The notes under the pieces are model-generated. The model was not told where the DNA came from. It saw only the letters and a program-made list of their open reading frames with translations, and ran no database searches. Made by a program: the position numbers and the translations under genes. DNA of 64,000 nucleotides from contig NZ_CP070619.1 of the NCBI RefSeq assembly GCF_017068395.1, positions 7,130,001-7,194,000 of the forward strand, read 5' to 3'. The DNA comes from Rhodococcus pseudokoreensis (GTDB lineage: Bacteria; Actinomycetota; Actinomycetes; Mycobacteriales; Mycobacteriaceae). Below, in pieces: positions 2,993 through 29,852 of the stretch; the first letter of the stretch is position 1, and each line of letters begins with the position of its first letter.

Positions 2993-4081
2993 TCACGGCG
3001 CACGTTCGGCCGCCGCCGGGGCGGCCGTGTGCTCCCTCCGTGGGCATCCGCAGGTAGTGCCGATGCGGAGTTCGTGGGCGCGAAGTACCGACTGAAATGA
3101 GCCTCCGGCCCCGTCGATGCGACGGGTGAGGAGTTCGAGTGCCTGTTCGGCCATCTCTCGGCGCGGTTGGTTGACGGTGGTCAGTTCGACGAGGGGGGAT
3201 GCGCCGGGAAAGAGGCCGTCGAAGCCGGTGACGGCGACGTCGTCCGGAACTGTGATCGAGTGCGCACGCAGCGCACTGATCGCTCCGAGTGCGATGGCGT
3301 CGCTACCGCAGACGATCACTCGCGGAAGGGCTTTTCGTGCGAGGAGTTCTTCGACGGCCGCGTACCCGCCCTGCTCGCTGAGATAGGTGCTGATGTGGTG
3401 CGAAGCGATGCTTCGAATGCCGTGTGACTCGGCGGTGCGAGTGAATCCGTCCTCTCTGGCAGCGGATGCGCTCGATACGCGGGGCCCGACGATGGTCACG
3501 ATGTCTCGATATCCGTGTTCCAGAACGTGTTCCATCATTTCCGCTGCGGCCGCCCGGTCGTCGATCCCGACGAAATCGGCCTCGATTCGTTCGATCCGCC
3601 GTGACAGCTGGATCAGCGGTATGTGCGCGCTACGGAGGGAGCGGATCACGTCGCCGTCGTCGGGATGCAGCACGGTGAACACGACACCGTCGACGTGTCG
3701 GGCGATCATCGCGTCCACCACGGACCGGAGAGTCGCGGGATCCTCCTGGGTATGGGCGAGAAACACCTCGTATCCGCGGGCCCGGGCGGCGTCGATCGTT
3801 CCCGCGGCGATCTCGGTGTAGAACGGATTGGCGATATCGGTCAGGACGAGGCCGATGACGCGCGTCTGGTGCGATCGGAGGCGGTTCGCCCGTGCGCTGG
3901 ACGTGTGCCCCAGTTCCTCGGCTACCTCCAGAATCCGCTCTCGGGTTTCCTCGGACACCCCGGATCTCCCGTTCATCACGTAGGAGACTGTGGCCGGCGA
4001 GACGCCCACCGCTCGTGCGACGTCGGCAGCGGACACGCGCCGGGGGCGCTGGGCGCTAGTTCGTGTGGCGGTCGTTCTCAT
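2993..4081 (-). CDS. LacI-family transcriptional regulator
   Basis: A 362-aa LacI/GalR repressor. The N-terminal helix-turn-helix is clear (VSAADVARAVGVSPATVSYV, about residues 17-36), followed by the hinge helix and a periplasmic-binding-protein-like ligand domain. A short tail contains CGCPRREH. ATG at 4081 is preceded by a GAGG-type ribosome site. It is the first gene of the minus-strand operon leading to the MFS transporter, reductase and BKACE, and so is the likely local repressor of that pathway. Two dyads of the form CAAC-N5-GTTG lie upstream (listed separately), suggesting autoregulation. Confidence 0.9.
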   Translation of the reverse strand: MRTTATRTSAQRPRRVSAADVARAVGVSPATVSYVMNGRSGVSEETRERILEVAEELGHTSSARANRLRSHQTRVIGLVLTDIANPFYTEIAAGTIDAARARGYEVFLAHTQEDPATLRSVVDAMIARHVDGVVFTVLHPDDGDVIRSLRSAHIPLIQLSRRIERIEADFVGIDDRAAAAEMMEHVLEHGYRDIVTIVGPRVSSASAAREDGFTRTAESHGIRSIASHHISTYLSEQGGYAAVEELLARKALPRVIVCGSDAIALGAISALRAHSITVPDDVAVTGFDGLFPGASPLVELTTVNQPRREMAEQALELLTRRIDGAGGSFQSVLRAHELRIGTTCGCPRREHTAAPAAAERAP

Positions 4082-4140
4082 GGGTTCACCTCCTCGGTCC
4101 GATCTGATGTACCGACGTTAAGTGTGACCCAAATCATTAA

Positions 4141-25091: not shown

Positions 25092-25823
25092 TCACAGGCC
25101 GCCGGCGACGGCGATGGTCGTGGCGGTGACGTAGGACGCCTGATGGGACAGCGCCCACAGCACCGCCTCGGCGATCTCCTCGGGTGTCGCGACCCGGCCG
25201 AGGGGGATCCGCCCGGCGACCCGTTCGGGTCGCCCCGGGTCTCCCGCGGCCGCGTGGATGTCGGTGTCGGTGGTACCGGGAGCGACACCGACGACCCGGA
25301 TGTTCGCGGCCGCCAGTTCCCGCCCGAGTCCCGTCGTGAGACTGTCGACGGCCGCCTTCGAGGCCGCATACCCGACGTATTCGCCGGGTGCCCCGCTTCC
25401 CGCCGCGACCGAACTGAGGTTGACGATCACGCCGGGACGCCCCTCCCGGACCCAGTGCTCGGCCGCCGCGCGGGCGTAATTGATGGTCCCGAACACGTTG
25501 ACGTCGAACACCTCCCGCAGCGACGCATCCGAGGTGGACAGGAAGGGACCGAGAGGGCCGGTGGTCCCCGCGTTGTTGACCACCGCGACCAGTTGGCCGC
25601 GTTCGTCGGACGCGCCCACCACTGCCGCGGCCAGTGCGGCGTCGCGCACATCGGCACGCACGGCGGTGGCCCGGATCCCGCAGTGGTGCATGAGGTGGTC
25701 GGCGGCCTCGTCGTCGTTCTGATAGGTGAGCGTCACCTGATAGCCGCGATGGACGGCCAGACGCACGACGGCGGCGCCGATGCCGCGCGATCCACCGGTG
25801 ACGAGGATGTGTTCGCTCACCAT
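25092..25823 (-). CDS. Short-chain dehydrogenase/reductase
   Basis: A 243-aa classical SDR. The cofactor motif TGGSRGIG is at residues 9-16, NNAG follows, then the catalytic Ser in NLSS and the Y-x3-K motif in YAASK. The absence of an acidic residue after beta-2 (YQNDDEA) leaves NADP or NAD open. It resembles 3-oxoacyl-ACP reductase/glucose dehydrogenase-like SDRs. Substrate unknown. ATG at 25823. It stands alone on its strand. Confidence 0.83.
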   Translation of the reverse strand: MVSEHILVTGGSRGIGAAVVRLAVHRGYQVTLTYQNDDEAADHLMHHCGIRATAVRADVRDAALAAAVVGASDERGQLVAVVNNAGTTGPLGPFLSTSDASLREVFDVNVFGTINYARAAAEHWVREGRPGVIVNLSSVAAGSGAPGEYVGYAASKAAVDSLTTGLGRELAAANIRVVGVAPGTTDTDIHAAAGDPGRPERVAGRIPLGRVATPEEIAEAVLWALSHQASYVTATTIAVAGGL

Positions 25824-25919
25824 ACGAGCGTATCCGGGCGATCAAACGAGGACCAAAGCTGAAAGCGATCGGTTCCAGGGTGAGGCGGAGGGTGGCGTCA
25901 TAGCGCACGGGCGGTAGGT

Positions 25920-26345
25920 CTAGGGAACTGTCCACACCCCGGCGCCGGGCAGCAACGTGAAGCTCGGAGTGCCGGGAATCCCGACCGAAGCGACGAGCAC
26001 CCCCGAACCTGTCGGTACATAATCGCGATTCTGCGTGCTCCTGAGCCCCACCTGAGCCACCCCAGTCGCCCCCGTCGATAGGTTCCGCCACTGGATACTG
26101 CAGAAGCAATAGCCGGCGTCATTGGAAATAAAGCGCGTCATTCCCGGCCGTTCCGCGTCGGTCTGCGCGATAACCCATCCGCCGGCGGCAGACGACAGCA
26201 TGTACGGCGGCGCGGCCGTCACGCCGAACGTTGGAAGAAGGAACTGCACGTCAATCGGTGCAGCGTGAGCAGTTGGGTTCACGGACAACGCAATCCCAAG
26301 GGATGCGACGACTGCGGTGGACGTGGCGGCGATCCTACGGAACAT
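25920..26345 (-). CDS. Small secreted protein, paralogue B
   Basis: A 141-aa exported protein with a Sec signal peptide (cleavage likely after AHA, about residue 28). The mature part shares GGWVIAQTD, PGMTRFI, a C-x-C pair (CFC), NLSTGATGV and the C-terminal ending GVWTVP with the gene just upstream. I recognise no named family. ATG at 26345 overlaps the upstream paralogue by 11 bp, so its first codons are also the last codons of that gene. The Cys-x-Cys pair may form a disulfide outside the cell. Confidence 0.72.
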   Translation of the reverse strand: MFRRIAATSTAVVASLGIALSVNPTAHAAPIDVQFLLPTFGVTAAPPYMLSSAAGGWVIAQTDAERPGMTRFISNDAGYCFCSIQWRNLSTGATGVAQVGLRSTQNRDYVPTGSGVLVASVGIPGTPSFTLLPGAGVWTVP

Positions 26346-26799
26346 TCCACACCCCTACGGTAGGTAGCAACGTAATCGGCTGATAACCGATGGTCCACAC
26401 CGAGCCGACGACAACTCCTGACCCCGTGTTCGCGAAGCCGAAACTGGGAACGGGAAGTTGGTCCTGGTCGGCGCCCGCATCCGTGACACCGGACGCACCG
26501 GTCCTGAGGTTCTGCCAATGGACCGCACACATGCATCCAATCGACGGGTCGGTGATGAACCGCGTGACGCCCGGTGTACTCGAATCGGTTCGCGCGACGA
26601 TCCAACCGCCACCGAAGCCGCGCCAGCCGATGCCTGGAACTGCGCTGCTCCCGAAGACCGGGCTTGGGAACTGATAATCAGAGGGAGCGGCTTGGACGGC
26701 TACCGGACTCAGCAGGGCTACACCCGATGCGATTGCGATCACTGCCGCAGCCCGTAGCTTCCTGCTCGTGAGAATCTGGACGCGGTGGAAACGGGCCAT
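26335..26799 (-). CDS. Small secreted protein, paralogue A
   Basis: A 154-aa exported protein with a long signal peptide (cleavage likely after VQA, about residue 38). The mature part parallels paralogue B: GGWIVARTD, PGVTRFI, a CMC pair, NLRTGASGV and a final GVWNVP. ATG at 26799 with an AGGGGG ribosome site five bases upstream. The two genes arose by tandem duplication and form a two-gene operon. The role is unknown; size and export fit a cell-envelope or secreted factor. Confidence 0.72.
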   Translation of the reverse strand: MARFHRVQILTSRKLRAAAVIAIASGVALLSPVAVQAAPSDYQFPSPVFGSSAVPGIGWRGFGGGWIVARTDSSTPGVTRFITDPSIGCMCAVHWQNLRTGASGVTDAGADQDQLPVPSFGFANTGSGVVVGSVWTIGYQPITLLPTVGVWNVP

Positions 26800-27085
26800 G
26801 GCTGCCCCCTCATGTCACCCCGACACGGAATAGATGGAGGATCCCTGTTAGTCATTATGGCGGAAGTGAAGCGATCGGCAACGTCATTCGGGTGAGCGAC
26901 ATCAGCGGAGTGAAATGGACTGCGAACAACTTTGCCGAAATGCTGCCCCTGCAGTCCACCAGTGATGCACAGAAGTGACGCGTGGCCGTTGCTCTCGCCG
27001 CGTCGAGTACAAGCGCGTGTAACGCAGGTCATGACTGTGCGCGATACCTAGTTGTCGGGGCCAACTTCAACATGCGGAGGAAGCT

Positions 27086-27193
27086 ATGGCACCGCTGAGC
27101 ATGTGGGGAATACCCGAGTGGGCTCAGCCCGCCTTCTATGCGATCGCCAACGGGCTGGCGCAGATCGCCTACTGGTGGTTCAGCGTTACGTAA
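27086..27193 (+). CDS. Small hydrophobic peptide, copy 1 of a tandem family (intact)
   Basis: A 35-codon open frame, ATG at 27086 to TAA at 27191-27193. A good GGAGGA site at 27076-27081 is 4 nt from the ATG. The peptide starts MAPLSMWGIPEW and ends in an aromatic, membrane-like run (AYWWFSVT). The pattern [WYC]-G-[ILFV]-P-[ED] at residues 7-11 and Pro at 15 recurs without gaps in the copies downstream. No known family is recognised. It is the only copy with intact start and frame. It is too short for most gene finders but well supported by the repeated pattern. Confidence 0.55.
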   Translation: MAPLSMWGIPEWAQPAFYAIANGLAQIAYWWFSVT

Positions 27194-27202
27194 GGGCAAG
27201 GC

Positions 27203-27318
27203 ATGTTCGAGAACGTCACGTTTGCGGCTTCCCTTAGTTCCGCACCTTTGTCATCGCAGACGTGGACAACGCCTTCGCCGCCATTGCCAGGCCGATCATC
27301 GCCTGGTGCAGTCCATAA
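27203..27318 (+). pseudogene. Small peptide family, copy 2 (stop at codon 11 and start out of frame)
   Basis: Reading the frame that ends at TAA 27316-27318 gives C-G-F-P, then TAG (27235-27237) where other copies have the acidic residue. After it comes a residue string matching copy 1 without gaps (NAFAAIA against NGLAQIA at residues 22-28). GAG to TAG is one substitution. The nearby ATG at 27203 is in another frame, so a small frameshift near the start is also needed. It looks decayed. The call rests on the ungapped alignment, not on expression. Confidence 0.45.
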
Positions 27319-27334
27319 CTCGAGGAGCATGAAC

Positions 27335-27457
27335 ATGGACGATCCACGGTTCTACGGCCTGCCTGACGCGTGGTATCCCGGCTACATGGCTTTCAGGCAG
27401 TGGTCGATCGACCTGGTCTGACCGATCTTCTTCCGGTGGACCGAGAACATGATGTGA
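27335..27457 (+). pseudogene. Small peptide family, copy 3 (28-aa frame, internal TGA at codon 29)
   Basis: ATG at 27335 (a second ATG lies at 27329) has a GAGGAG site at 27322-27327. The open frame MDDPRFYGLPDAW... runs 28 codons to TGA at 27419-27421. If the TGA is read past, the frame continues 11 more codons to TGA at 27455-27457, giving 40 residues in all, exactly as in copy 4 and with the shared P30, W35 and final N-M-M. The TGA stands where copy 4 has a Gly codon. It may be a truncated but still translated 28-aa peptide, or a decaying copy. Confidence 0.48.
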
Positions 27458-27467
27458 GGAGACAGAT

Positions 27468-27524
27468 ATGCACTTCGTAATCGTCTTTGTGTCAGCATTT
27501 TCCCGCACCGAAGGAGTCGACTAG
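27468..27524 (+). CDS. 18-codon mini-ORF immediately before copy 4
   Basis: ATG at 27468 has a strong GAGGAG site (27456-27461) with ideal 6-nt spacing. It encodes MHFVIVFVSAFSRTEGVD and ends at TAG 27522-27524. The TAG is in frame with, and stands at the expected start codon of, peptide copy 4. It may be a leader peptide or the remnant N-terminus of a longer copy 4. Only the ribosome site supports it. Confidence 0.3.
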   Translation: MHFVIVFVSAFSRTEGVD

Positions 27525-27644
27525 GACGACCTTCGCCTGTGGGGCGTACCGGAGTTCATGATTCCGGCGATCAACGATGGACTCTACTGGTTTGCGCAGA
27601 CTTTCGGCCCCGCGATTATCTGGTGGCAACACAACATGATGTGA
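27522..27644 (+). pseudogene. Small peptide family, copy 4 (TAG in place of start codon)
   Basis: The frame after TAG 27522-27524 reads DDLRLWGVPEF... and ends in WWQHNMM at TGA 27642-27644. It aligns codon for codon with copy 3 (DDPRFYGLPD), placing TAG exactly where copy 3 has ATG. An AAGGAG site (27511-27516) sits 5 nt upstream, just where a ribosome site for that start should be. Start loss by mutation is the simplest reading. No alternative start codon with suitable spacing is seen; CTG at 27537 is 20 nt from the site. Confidence 0.45.
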
Positions 27645-27672
27645 CCCGTGCCTTGACCCGTTCGGCATCCTG

Positions 27673-27690
27673 TGTGGGTTCAGGCCCACA
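27673..27690 (+). terminator. Short hairpin after the peptide cluster
   Basis: TGTGGG-TTCAGG-CCCACA is a perfect 6-bp stem with a 6-nt loop, 28 bp after the last peptide copy. It is weak and has no T-run, so it is only a possible terminator. Confidence 0.3.
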
Positions 27691-27772
27691 TCGAAGACGT
27701 CGACGAGGCGGAGATGAGCGCCCCGGCCTTCACATGCTGAGCGCAGGCTTCTTTACCTGCCGATGACCGCGG

Positions 27773-28261
27773 TCAGCGCGTGGGCCTGCCGAACGTGATG
27801 CTCGGCGCCGTCACCGTGATCGACGCGATGCGGACCGCGAGACCGGGGGCAGGCGGCGGCTCGGCGTCGATGAGGGTGGGGTGATAGTCGACCTGCTCGG
27901 GCGCCGTGCGGGCCGGCGCGAAGACGCTCCGGACCACCCCGATCGGCGTGCGGGCAATGGCGTCGGCCGACTGCTGGATCTGCTCGAGCGTCCGGAACAT
28001 CGTGTCGAAATTCTCGGACTGCCTGCCCGTGCTCACCGCCTCGACCACCGGACGCATCGTCCGCAGCAGGAACACGACCTCTTCGAGGAGTTCCTCGGTG
28101 AGCCGGAGGATGTGGAACGACGTCTTCGCCACCTCGATCGGCACGGTGACGGTGCACACGGCGATGCGGACGGGACCTTCCGCGGCCTCGGCCGCCCTCC
28201 GGTACGCGTCCTCGATGACCGGGGCGACACACGAGGGCACGAAGCGGGAAACGAATGTCAC
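27773..28261 (-). CDS. Hypothetical protein, helical
   Basis: A 162-aa protein of no family I recognise. The first 110 residues look alpha-helical, with amphipathic stretches (ILRLTEELLEEVVFLLRTM) and a strand CTVTVPIEV; the C-terminus is Pro- and Ala-rich. GTG at 28261 is preferred because a GAGGGGG ribosome site precedes it; an upstream in-frame start would add about 22 residues. It stands on the same strand as ligB, 79 bp downstream of it. Confidence 0.62.
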   Translation of the reverse strand: MTFVSRFVPSCVAPVIEDAYRRAAEAAEGPVRIAVCTVTVPIEVAKTSFHILRLTEELLEEVVFLLRTMRPVVEAVSTGRQSENFDTMFRTLEQIQQSADAIARTPIGVVRSVFAPARTAPEQVDYHPTLIDAEPPPAPGLAVRIASITVTAPSITFGRPTR

Positions 28262-28340
28262 TGGTCGACCCCCTCGCGGCACGGCGACTTGCTTTGCCGG
28301 GGAGGCTACCGCCCCGGCGCGCGCCACGCAGGACGAGCGG

Positions 28341-29852
28341 TCACCCCGGCAGCAGGGCGCGGACGGCGTCGATGGTGTCGGCGTCGGCGGCCGTCTTGTC
28401 GGGGCGGTACCGCAGGACGCGGGCGAACCGCAGGGCGAGCCCGCCGGGGTAGCGGGAGCTGACCTGGACGCCGTCGAGTTCGATCTCCACGACGAGGTCG
28501 GGGTTCAGGTACACCGTGTGGTCGTCGCGGCGGCGTTCGTGGCGGGGGAATTCTTCCGTCTGCCACTGCAGCAGCGCGTCGGTGAGGCCCTTGAACGTCT
28601 TGCCCACCATGATCGGTTCGCCGCCGTCCGGGTCGCGGGCCCCGAGGTGCAGGTTGGACAGGTAGCCGGTGCGCCGCCCGTATCCCCACTCCGCGCCGAG
28701 CACCACCAGGTCGAGGGTGTGCTCCGGTTTCACCTTCTGCCAGGCGCGGCCGCGTCGTCCCGCCGCATATGGCGCGGTGAGCGATTTGACCATCACGCCC
28801 TCGTGCCCGGCGGCGAGTGCGTCGTCGAAATGGGTTGCGGCCCCGTCGCTGTCGGGGCGGATCAGGCCGGGGATGCGGTGTTGTGGGGCAACCCGTTCCA
28901 GCGCGTCCAACCGCTGTTCGAGGGGTGCGTCCAGCAGGTCGACGCCGTCGAGATGCAGGCAGTCGAAGAAGTACGGGTGCAGCAGCAGGTCGCGGGAGGA
29001 CTCGGCGCCGAAGCGGCTCATCGTCTCCTGGAACGGCCGGGGCCTGCCGCTGTCGGTGAGCGCCAGTGTCTCCCCGTCGAACACCGCCGACGTGCAGGGC
29101 AGTCCTGCGACGAGATCGACGAGTTCCGGTACGCTGCCGGTGATCTCACGCAGGGTGCGGGTGAAGATCCGTACCTCGTCGCCGTTGCGGTGCACCTGGA
29201 TCCGCGCGCCGTCGAGTTTGTATTCGACGCTGACGTCGCCGCCGAGTTCGGTCCACGCGTCGGCGAGGGATTCGGCGGGGGAGGCCAGCATAGGCCGCAC
29301 CGGACGGCCCACCTCCAGCCGGAACGCGGTGAGCGCGTCGACCCCGCCGTCGAATGCGGCGACCGCGGTCGCGGGCAGCCGTCCCGACAGCATGAACGCC
29401 CGGCGCACCGGTTCGACGGGCAGATCGGCGGCCGCCGCGATCGCGTCCGTCATCACCCCCTCCAGTGCGCCCTGGCGGAGGTCGCCGGTGACCAGCCGGA
29501 TCAGGAAGTCCCGCTCGTCGGTGGTGGTGCGGGAGAACAGGTCCGCGAGCAGTTCACGCCGGCGTGCGGCCGACCCGGAGCCGGTGACCGCGGCGACGGC
29601 GGAGATGGTCCCGTCGACCTCGGAGACCGTGACGGACCCGGCGTCGACGGGTGTGGCCGGAATGTCCGCGACTGTCCGCCAGCCGATTCCGATCCGGCCC
29701 TGCCGCAGTTCCCCGGACAGCCACGCGACCACCGGTTCCACCTCGGGCGGCTCCAGCCGGGTGAGGACCTCGCGGAGCGCCCCGACCTTCACCTTCCGCG
29801 ATCGGGTGGCACCCACGTCCCGGGACGTCGCGACGATCTGCGAGAACAGCAC
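28341..29852 (-). CDS. ligB: ATP-dependent DNA ligase LigB
   Basis: A 503-aa ATP-dependent DNA ligase. The N-terminal DNA-binding domain is followed by the nucleotidyltransferase core with the lysine-adenylation motif E-Y-K-L-D-G-A-R (near residue 211) and a C-terminal OB domain (DLVVEIELDGVQ, LRFARVLRYRPDK). The layout and length are those of mycobacterial LigB (Rv3062 type), a non-essential accessory ligase. GTG at 29852. It is divergent from the flavin monooxygenase across 92 bp. Confidence 0.92.
   Translation of the reverse strand: MLFSQIVATSRDVGATRSRKVKVGALREVLTRLEPPEVEPVVAWLSGELRQGRIGIGWRTVADIPATPVDAGSVTVSEVDGTISAVAAVTGSGSAARRRELLADLFSRTTTDERDFLIRLVTGDLRQGALEGVMTDAIAAAADLPVEPVRRAFMLSGRLPATAVAAFDGGVDALTAFRLEVGRPVRPMLASPAESLADAWTELGGDVSVEYKLDGARIQVHRNGDEVRIFTRTLREITGSVPELVDLVAGLPCTSAVFDGETLALTDSGRPRPFQETMSRFGAESSRDLLLHPYFFDCLHLDGVDLLDAPLEQRLDALERVAPQHRIPGLIRPDSDGAATHFDDALAAGHEGVMVKSLTAPYAAGRRGRAWQKVKPEHTLDLVVLGAEWGYGRRTGYLSNLHLGARDPDGGEPIMVGKTFKGLTDALLQWQTEEFPRHERRRDDHTVYLNPDLVVEIELDGVQVSSRYPGGLALRFARVLRYRPDKTAADADTIDAVRALLPG

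Follow-up and report, generated by a model that had tools for sequence, protein, structure and literature searches.

A partly decayed array of tiny aromatic-peptide genes under a sigma-D type promoter in Rhodococcus pseudokoreensis

Corynebacterium equips its mycomembrane with very short proteins that lack a signal sequence: PorA has 45, PorH 57 and ProtX 38 amino acids (PMC5310785), while PorACj, a mycolate outer membrane protein, has 40 (PMC5310785, PMC3792995). In C. glutamicum, PorA, PorH and ProtX belong to the sigma-D regulon together with the mycoloyltransferase Cmt1 (PMC11175481); this sigma factor recognises the consensus GTAAC(A/G), followed by GAT at -10, and controls a regulon in the service of the mycomembrane (PMC6338062). 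A 2025 preprint describes as unclear by what route peptides lacking a signal pass the inner membrane and come together in the mycomembrane (PMC12632848). Within Rhodococcus, MspA-like cell-wall channels with signal peptides have been described from R. ruber and R. corynebacteroides (PorARc, PorARr, PorBRr); at about 20 kDa they are unlike the peptides considered here in size (PMC9233653).

The locus described here lies in a 64,000-nucleotide stretch of R. pseudokoreensis contig NZ_CP070619.1 (positions 7,130,001 to 7,194,000, hereafter the window), where a promoter and four peptide copies share a short segment with two genes for putatively secreted proteins. Its features, in window coordinates, are as follows.

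25885..27654, strand not assigned: lineage-specific segment with the secreted pair and the array, absent from all four relatives compared
25920..26345, minus: 141-aa protein with a signal-like N-terminus, 42% identical to its neighbour
26335..26799, minus: 154-aa protein with a signal-like N-terminus, on the same segment of about 1.8 kb as the array
27019..27047, plus: promoter of the sigma-D type before copy 1, an exact match to the pattern (GTAAC, 18 nt, CGAT)
27048..27085, plus: leader of copy 1 with a GGAGG Shine-Dalgarno site, read in the sequence
27086..27193, plus: copy 1, an intact WGIPEW-class peptide gene of 35 codons, with GGAGG 5 nt upstream of its ATG
27205..27318, plus: copy 2, a possible remnant with an in-frame TAG, no start codon seen and marginal similarity to copy 4
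27335..27457, plus: copy 3, interrupted by an in-frame TGA at 27419-27421, assigned by similarity to copy 4 and by intact 40-aa relatives
27522..27644, plus: copy 4, with TAG (27522-27524) at the expected start position and otherwise open, assigned by its scores against copies 1 and 3 and by a profile match
27655..27740, plus: surviving 3' end of a glyoxalase-family gene; the segment stands in place of its 5' part, from comparison with relatives

Judged by its reading frames, the locus is one intact gene with two or three broken copies, and only in copy 1 is the frame of a family member open all the way between start and stop codon. The four genes of the original prediction are obtained only if stop codons are read as sense: stops lie inside copies 2 and 3, and in copy 4, where an AGGAG site precedes the TAG, a stop replaces the start codon expected there, which rules out copies 2 to 4 as working genes. 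The gapless alignment claimed for all four frames holds for two pairs, copy 4 with copy 1 and copy 4 with copy 3 (ungapped BLOSUM62 scores of 45 and 55, each reached by 0 of 300 dinucleotide shuffles). Copy 2 is marginal against copy 4 (score 28, reached by 4 of 300 shuffles) and not significantly similar to copies 1 and 3 (112 and 243 of 300 shuffles reach the scores). Because copies 1 and 3, compared head to head, score 25 against a dinucleotide-shuffle mean of 24 (n = 300), the place of copy 3 in the family rests on copy 4 and on intact relatives, two 40-aa entries of the protein database that match copy 3 over the full length at 95% (P0010) and 63% (P0011) identity. Since such relatives exist, copy 3 represents a broken gene rather than a chance frame, and stop-codon recoding in place of decay is not favoured. 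The predicted motif, (aromatic or Cys)-Gly-x-Pro, is present, with Pro15 in copies 1, 3 and 4 and Pro30 in copies 2, 3 and 4; in copy 2, TAG occupies the position of its acidic residue. The 40 sense positions and NMM ends attributed to copies 3 and 4 appear only when the TGA of the former and the TAG of the latter are read through.

Copy 1 is identified as a real gene by its relatives and by the pattern of its substitutions. Searching other Rhodococcus genomes with the first peptide, as had been suggested, returned full-length relatives of 77-91% identity at four loci, namely R. opacus S8 plasmids pCP105 and pCP135 and contigs of R. koreensis DSM 44498 and R. wratislaviensis NCTC 13229, while pRB29 of R. 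oxybenzonivorans carries a relative cut after codon 15. Leader and copy 1 together (27032-27197) are 85% identical at the DNA level to a stretch of contig G006:C5, and a 39-aa form present in nr comes from Rhodococcus sp. JVH1 (P0007, 12 member sequences). Nine of the ten orthologue pairs have dN values of 0.07-0.15, below their dS values of 0.59-1.32, and a single nonsynonymous change is the sole difference in the tenth; the pairwise differences at codon positions 1, 2 and 3 number 37, 33 and 113 and are thus mostly synonymous. PLSDB annotation of three copy-1 plasmids, incomplete by design, lists no gene at the site.

A wider distribution of this peptide found no support. When a copy-1 profile was run against 401 genomes, strong matches came from just four, all of them Rhodococcus and one with a truncated copy, alongside many further matches at E 0.003-1; with copies 3 and 4 added to the profile, a search of 28 genus genomes picked out these four again. 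Matches to copy 4 at E 0.06-0.7 (L004, L005, L006, L007 and L010) look on inspection like chance within other sequence, a further match (L008) is the copy-1 orthologue of genome G026, and tblastn of copy 4 against plasmids returned eight Acinetobacter records at E 5. A phage origin of the array was rejected, as none of five stretches in viral_contigs that fit the copy-1 pattern was confirmed as a relative, the phages collection held no copy-1 match, and PHROG contained no family for the five array peptides searched.

The multicopy family of small aromatic peptides that had been proposed is supported by arrays elsewhere in the genus. Plasmid pCP135 carries six tightly packed ORFs for tiny aromatic peptides, beginning with one for a 65-aa peptide with a signal-like N-terminus and ending with the copy-1 orthologue; similar runs occur on pRWAY01, pDK3, pDK4, pLPS8, pRho-VOC14-C342, pROB01, pRB29 and pRB98 and on contigs of other genomes. 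These arrays define a family of leaderless, neutral-to-acidic, aromatic-rich peptides of about 22-47 aa in operon-like order, where the lack of a signal was judged by eye and the 65-aa lead peptide is the exception. We catalogued 94 distinct peptides, chosen by motif and aromatic content and including a few evident false members. Net charge is zero or below in 80 of the 81 that measure up to 47 aa, and 45 have neither Lys nor Arg; aromatic residues make up 24% of these 81 peptides, a figure raised by the selection. Ser or Thr occurs in 67 of the 81, although its presence alone is no test of O-mycoloylation. Neighbouring ORFs are tightly set in 50 of 63 pairs, with 18 overlapping and 32 spaced by 0-20 nt. 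The sequences show that the peptides are encoded under purifying selection, that neighbouring ORFs overlap or lie close together and that a promoter type is shared.

The commonest class, MIGxxxD...W[WF]N[QP][FL], is matched by its profile (E <= 0.05) in 13 of the 28 genus genomes, and in this genome at six places, two of them within a five-ORF array at C6:7304.7-7305.2 kb; other recurrent peptide ends are GGGS, PLLQAWxDWRY and WG[IV]PEW. One chromosomal MIG-peptide locus is found in eight genomes, preceded in six by a second small frame, and its peptide is under strong purifying selection (dN < dS in 28 of 28 pairs). One instance is located as follows.

3929-4122 of locus L131 (G005:C1:2399728-2399921): chromosomal MIG-class locus, beside a tRNA-Arg gene (the tRNA checked in L131 only)

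Several observations concern individual arrays. On pCP135, the peptide ahead of the copy-1 orthologue (L023 5908-6039) begins like the pROB01 peptide MFGLLTDMADW... and then enters the copy-1 leader, the picture that insertion of a copy-1 cassette into the array would leave. On pRWAY01, about 50 nt separate the end of an IS256-family transposase gene (L061 1599-2965) from an array without a sigma-D type promoter. Two annotated 56-aa hypothetical proteins, WP_157180225.1 (L088 2857-3027) and WP_204165029.1 (L089 2848-3018), resemble the MIG class, their starts apparently called too far upstream. The present genome encodes a peptide distantly related to the 65-aa lead peptide (G000:C1:330155-330286, minus strand, L085), and no adjacent tiny aromatic ORFs were found. 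A hairpin seen in array leaders folds weakly.

Comparison with reference collections assigned the tested peptides to no described family. Eight array peptides gave no above-threshold match in Pfam or NCBIfam, and the best PDB match of copy 1 stood at E 1.7; a match of the MIG profile to a streptococcal surface protein (PDB 6s5y, E 0.00044) spans ten residues only and was taken as a short chance motif. No description of these arrays was found in the literature searched, in which subscription papers are thinly covered.

The arrays share a promoter of the C. glutamicum sigma-D type. The exact pattern GTAAC-N15-18-CGAT stands before 24 of the 35 array first genes, among them copy 1, as against 1 of 827 control frames, and with up to one mismatch in GTAAC it precedes 30 of 35 as against 17 of 827; the first genes were picked by hand and are not independent, since eight are orthologues from a single chromosomal locus and two near-identical sets (L128/L140/L145 and L146/L147) occur among them, and the controls are ATG-started frames of at least 150 aa from all six frames of the loci without L154-L186, many of which are not genes. 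Near-duplicates (L024, L089, L137, L150) were excluded from the first genes, as were second arrays and fragments without a clear first gene (L094, L085, L126, L127, L129, L135, L149, L153). The element usually lies at -59 to -74 before the first gene, its two halves separated by 16-18 nt. It is missing, even at one mismatch, from five of the 35, including L059 and L060, which are both of the other copy-1 orthologue loci on a chromosome or contig. Across five genomes, GTAACR-N14-17-CGATA occurs 10-18 times per genome, compared with 2-6 times for a reversed control. Elsewhere, the same motif precedes genes for a secretory lipase (PF03583), a 248-aa transcriptional regulator, and 207-aa and 117-aa proteins with signal-like N-termini and no Pfam match; other occurrences have no evident gene downstream.

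The RsdA domain, which binds sigma-D, was detected in all 28 genus genomes. As the model matched none of 14 control genomes, it is uninformative on distant sigma-D systems. The present genome has two such domains.

G000:C6:1015147-1015284, minus: RsdA-type anti-sigma domain, RsdA model
G000:C6:8541977-8542114, minus: RsdA-type anti-sigma domain, RsdA model

The segment that carries the array was probably acquired horizontally. Its flanks are colinear at 86-90% identity in all four relatives, which have between them about 360-375 bp corresponding to the 5' part of the glyoxalase-family gene (in relative L187, a Pfam PF00903 match of 46.1 bits with a cut-off of 20.6). A search for terminal repeats at the segment edges yielded none that was convincing. 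The original prediction had noted that the peptides lie next to the two secreted proteins, and both groups do share the segment; however, the synteny check found no relative of either protein in the other 49 loci compared, so that the pair is not a conserved partner of the arrays. The secreted-protein family is present in 14 of the 28 genus genomes, and the 154-aa member (26335-26799, minus strand) resembles the NCBIfam Rv1157c C-terminal domain below the threshold of the model (E 0.024, 14.4 of 70 bits). A frame of an ATP-dependent DNA ligase cluster lies near arrays in 7 of 50 loci, two of them the same plasmid (L022, L059, L089/L150, L134, L148 and the window gene at 28341-29852, minus strand, a PF01068 match), which may be chance.

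Copy 1 is predicted to form a helix over residues 11-34 (mean pLDDT 84, alignment of three sequences), with a hydrophobic moment of 0.33 that 0.1% of shuffles reach. The amphipathic character ascribed to the peptides thus finds support in copy 1; in four other peptide segments tested, the moment is not significant. With PorA, PorH and ProtX, as these are portrayed in the sources cited above, the array peptides have in common very small size, the lack (apparent here) of a signal sequence, adjacent genes, a helical structure (predicted here) and control by sigma-D (putative here, from the promoter type). The PorA and PorH genes are described as co-transcribed, and the array ORFs are adjacent and tightly packed. 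The arrays differ in comprising runs of several distinct peptides, on plasmids as well as chromosomes, and in a strong aromatic content that is not noted for PorA and PorH in the accounts consulted. The NCBIfam PorH model NF033938 (porH_2) matched none of the eight array peptides, for which reason we claim a likeness of working and not membership; the same model has one sub-threshold match elsewhere in this genome (16.1 of 30 bits, C6:1349956), and one of the 14 control genomes gives a match above the cut-off.

We lean, by a modest degree, towards reading the locus as a partly decayed, probably horizontally acquired member of the Rhodococcus array family whose peptides may work like PorA, PorH and ProtX. 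This reading draws on the orthologues and their selection, the promoter, RsdA, the small size, the apparent lack of a signal, the adjacent genes and the predicted helix, as well as on the secretory lipase and signal-like protein genes under the same promoter type. Against it stand the absence of PorH and Pfam matches for the tested peptides, the aromatic content, amphipathicity in one of five segments, the MspA-like channels of other Rhodococcus and the five first genes without the promoter.

The same promoter and anti-sigma evidence would serve equally for envelope or surface peptides with another job, such as signalling, surfactant or wetting activity, the coating of lipid bodies or help in assembling other mycomembrane proteins, and several arrays are headed by a lead peptide with a signal-like N-terminus. 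Nothing speaks directly against this alternative, which is less parsimonious than an analogy with the sigma-D-controlled PorA, PorH and ProtX, and we consider it possible though rather unlikely. That the frames resemble one another by chance and are non-coding is, at the other extreme, barely credible: copies 2 to 4 all carry stops and copy 2 is hardly above chance, yet the orthologues, synonymous bias and promoter refute a chance frame for copy 1, and intact relatives of copy 3 point the same way; copy 2 may yet be a chance frame.

Multi-peptide leaderless bacteriocins such as aureocin A70 and garvicin KS consist of related short cationic peptides encoded in tandem and accompanied by genes for export or immunity. 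The array peptides, which are leaderless, about 30 aa long, related, encoded in tandem and on plasmids, and alike in an N-terminal motif, would suit a system of this style that acts jointly on competitors, and the original prediction had considered the peptides bacteriocin-like. This idea is not borne out by the catalogue, in which 80 of 81 peptides are neutral or acidic and 45 are devoid of Lys and Arg, nor by the annotation of the array plasmids, whose incomplete tables, with many neighbours listed as hypothetical, name no adjacent export or immunity gene; with the promoter being of the sigma-D type, we regard a bacteriocin role as improbable. Still more doubtful is a role as short membrane-active growth regulators, as in type I toxin peptides of the Ldr type, which are likewise produced from tandem copies. 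Length, the hydrophobic helix predicted in copy 1 and plasmid location would agree with it, but the arrays pack several distinct peptides into a run (50 of 63 pairs tight) rather than forming single units with antisense RNAs, positive charge is scarce, and Rfam gave no match at E up to 1 across the array stretch (25500-28400).

If the array peptides do resemble PorA, PorH and ProtX in their working, perturbation of the mycomembrane would cause RsdA to free sigma-D, which would lead to joint production of the peptides of an array. These would pass the inner membrane without a Sec signal, possibly become O-mycoloylated, and come together within the mycomembrane in helical homo- or hetero-oligomers that act as pores or envelope linkers, an assembly model drawn from the Corynebacterium proteins (PMC5310785, PMC3792995, PMC12632848). 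A bolder proposal, which we put forward tentatively and hold to be unlikely as a whole, is that the arrays constitute a plasmid-exchanged, combinatorial repertoire of tiny mycomembrane peptides driven by sigma-D, in which fixed ends (MIGxxxD...WWNQF, GGGS, WGIPEW) and variable middles would provide strain-specific pores or linkers that tune permeability, phage access or kin recognition.

The array genes have mostly been missed by annotation, and they add some 80-90 distinct peptides, behind a promoter of an envelope-stress type, to the inventory of a single genus. Should they prove to be true mycomembrane peptides, the principle of PorA, PorH and ProtX would extend from Corynebacterium to Rhodococcus, and the arrays would offer many natural variants for studying the way in which peptides without a signal pass the inner membrane, reach the mycomembrane and assemble there.
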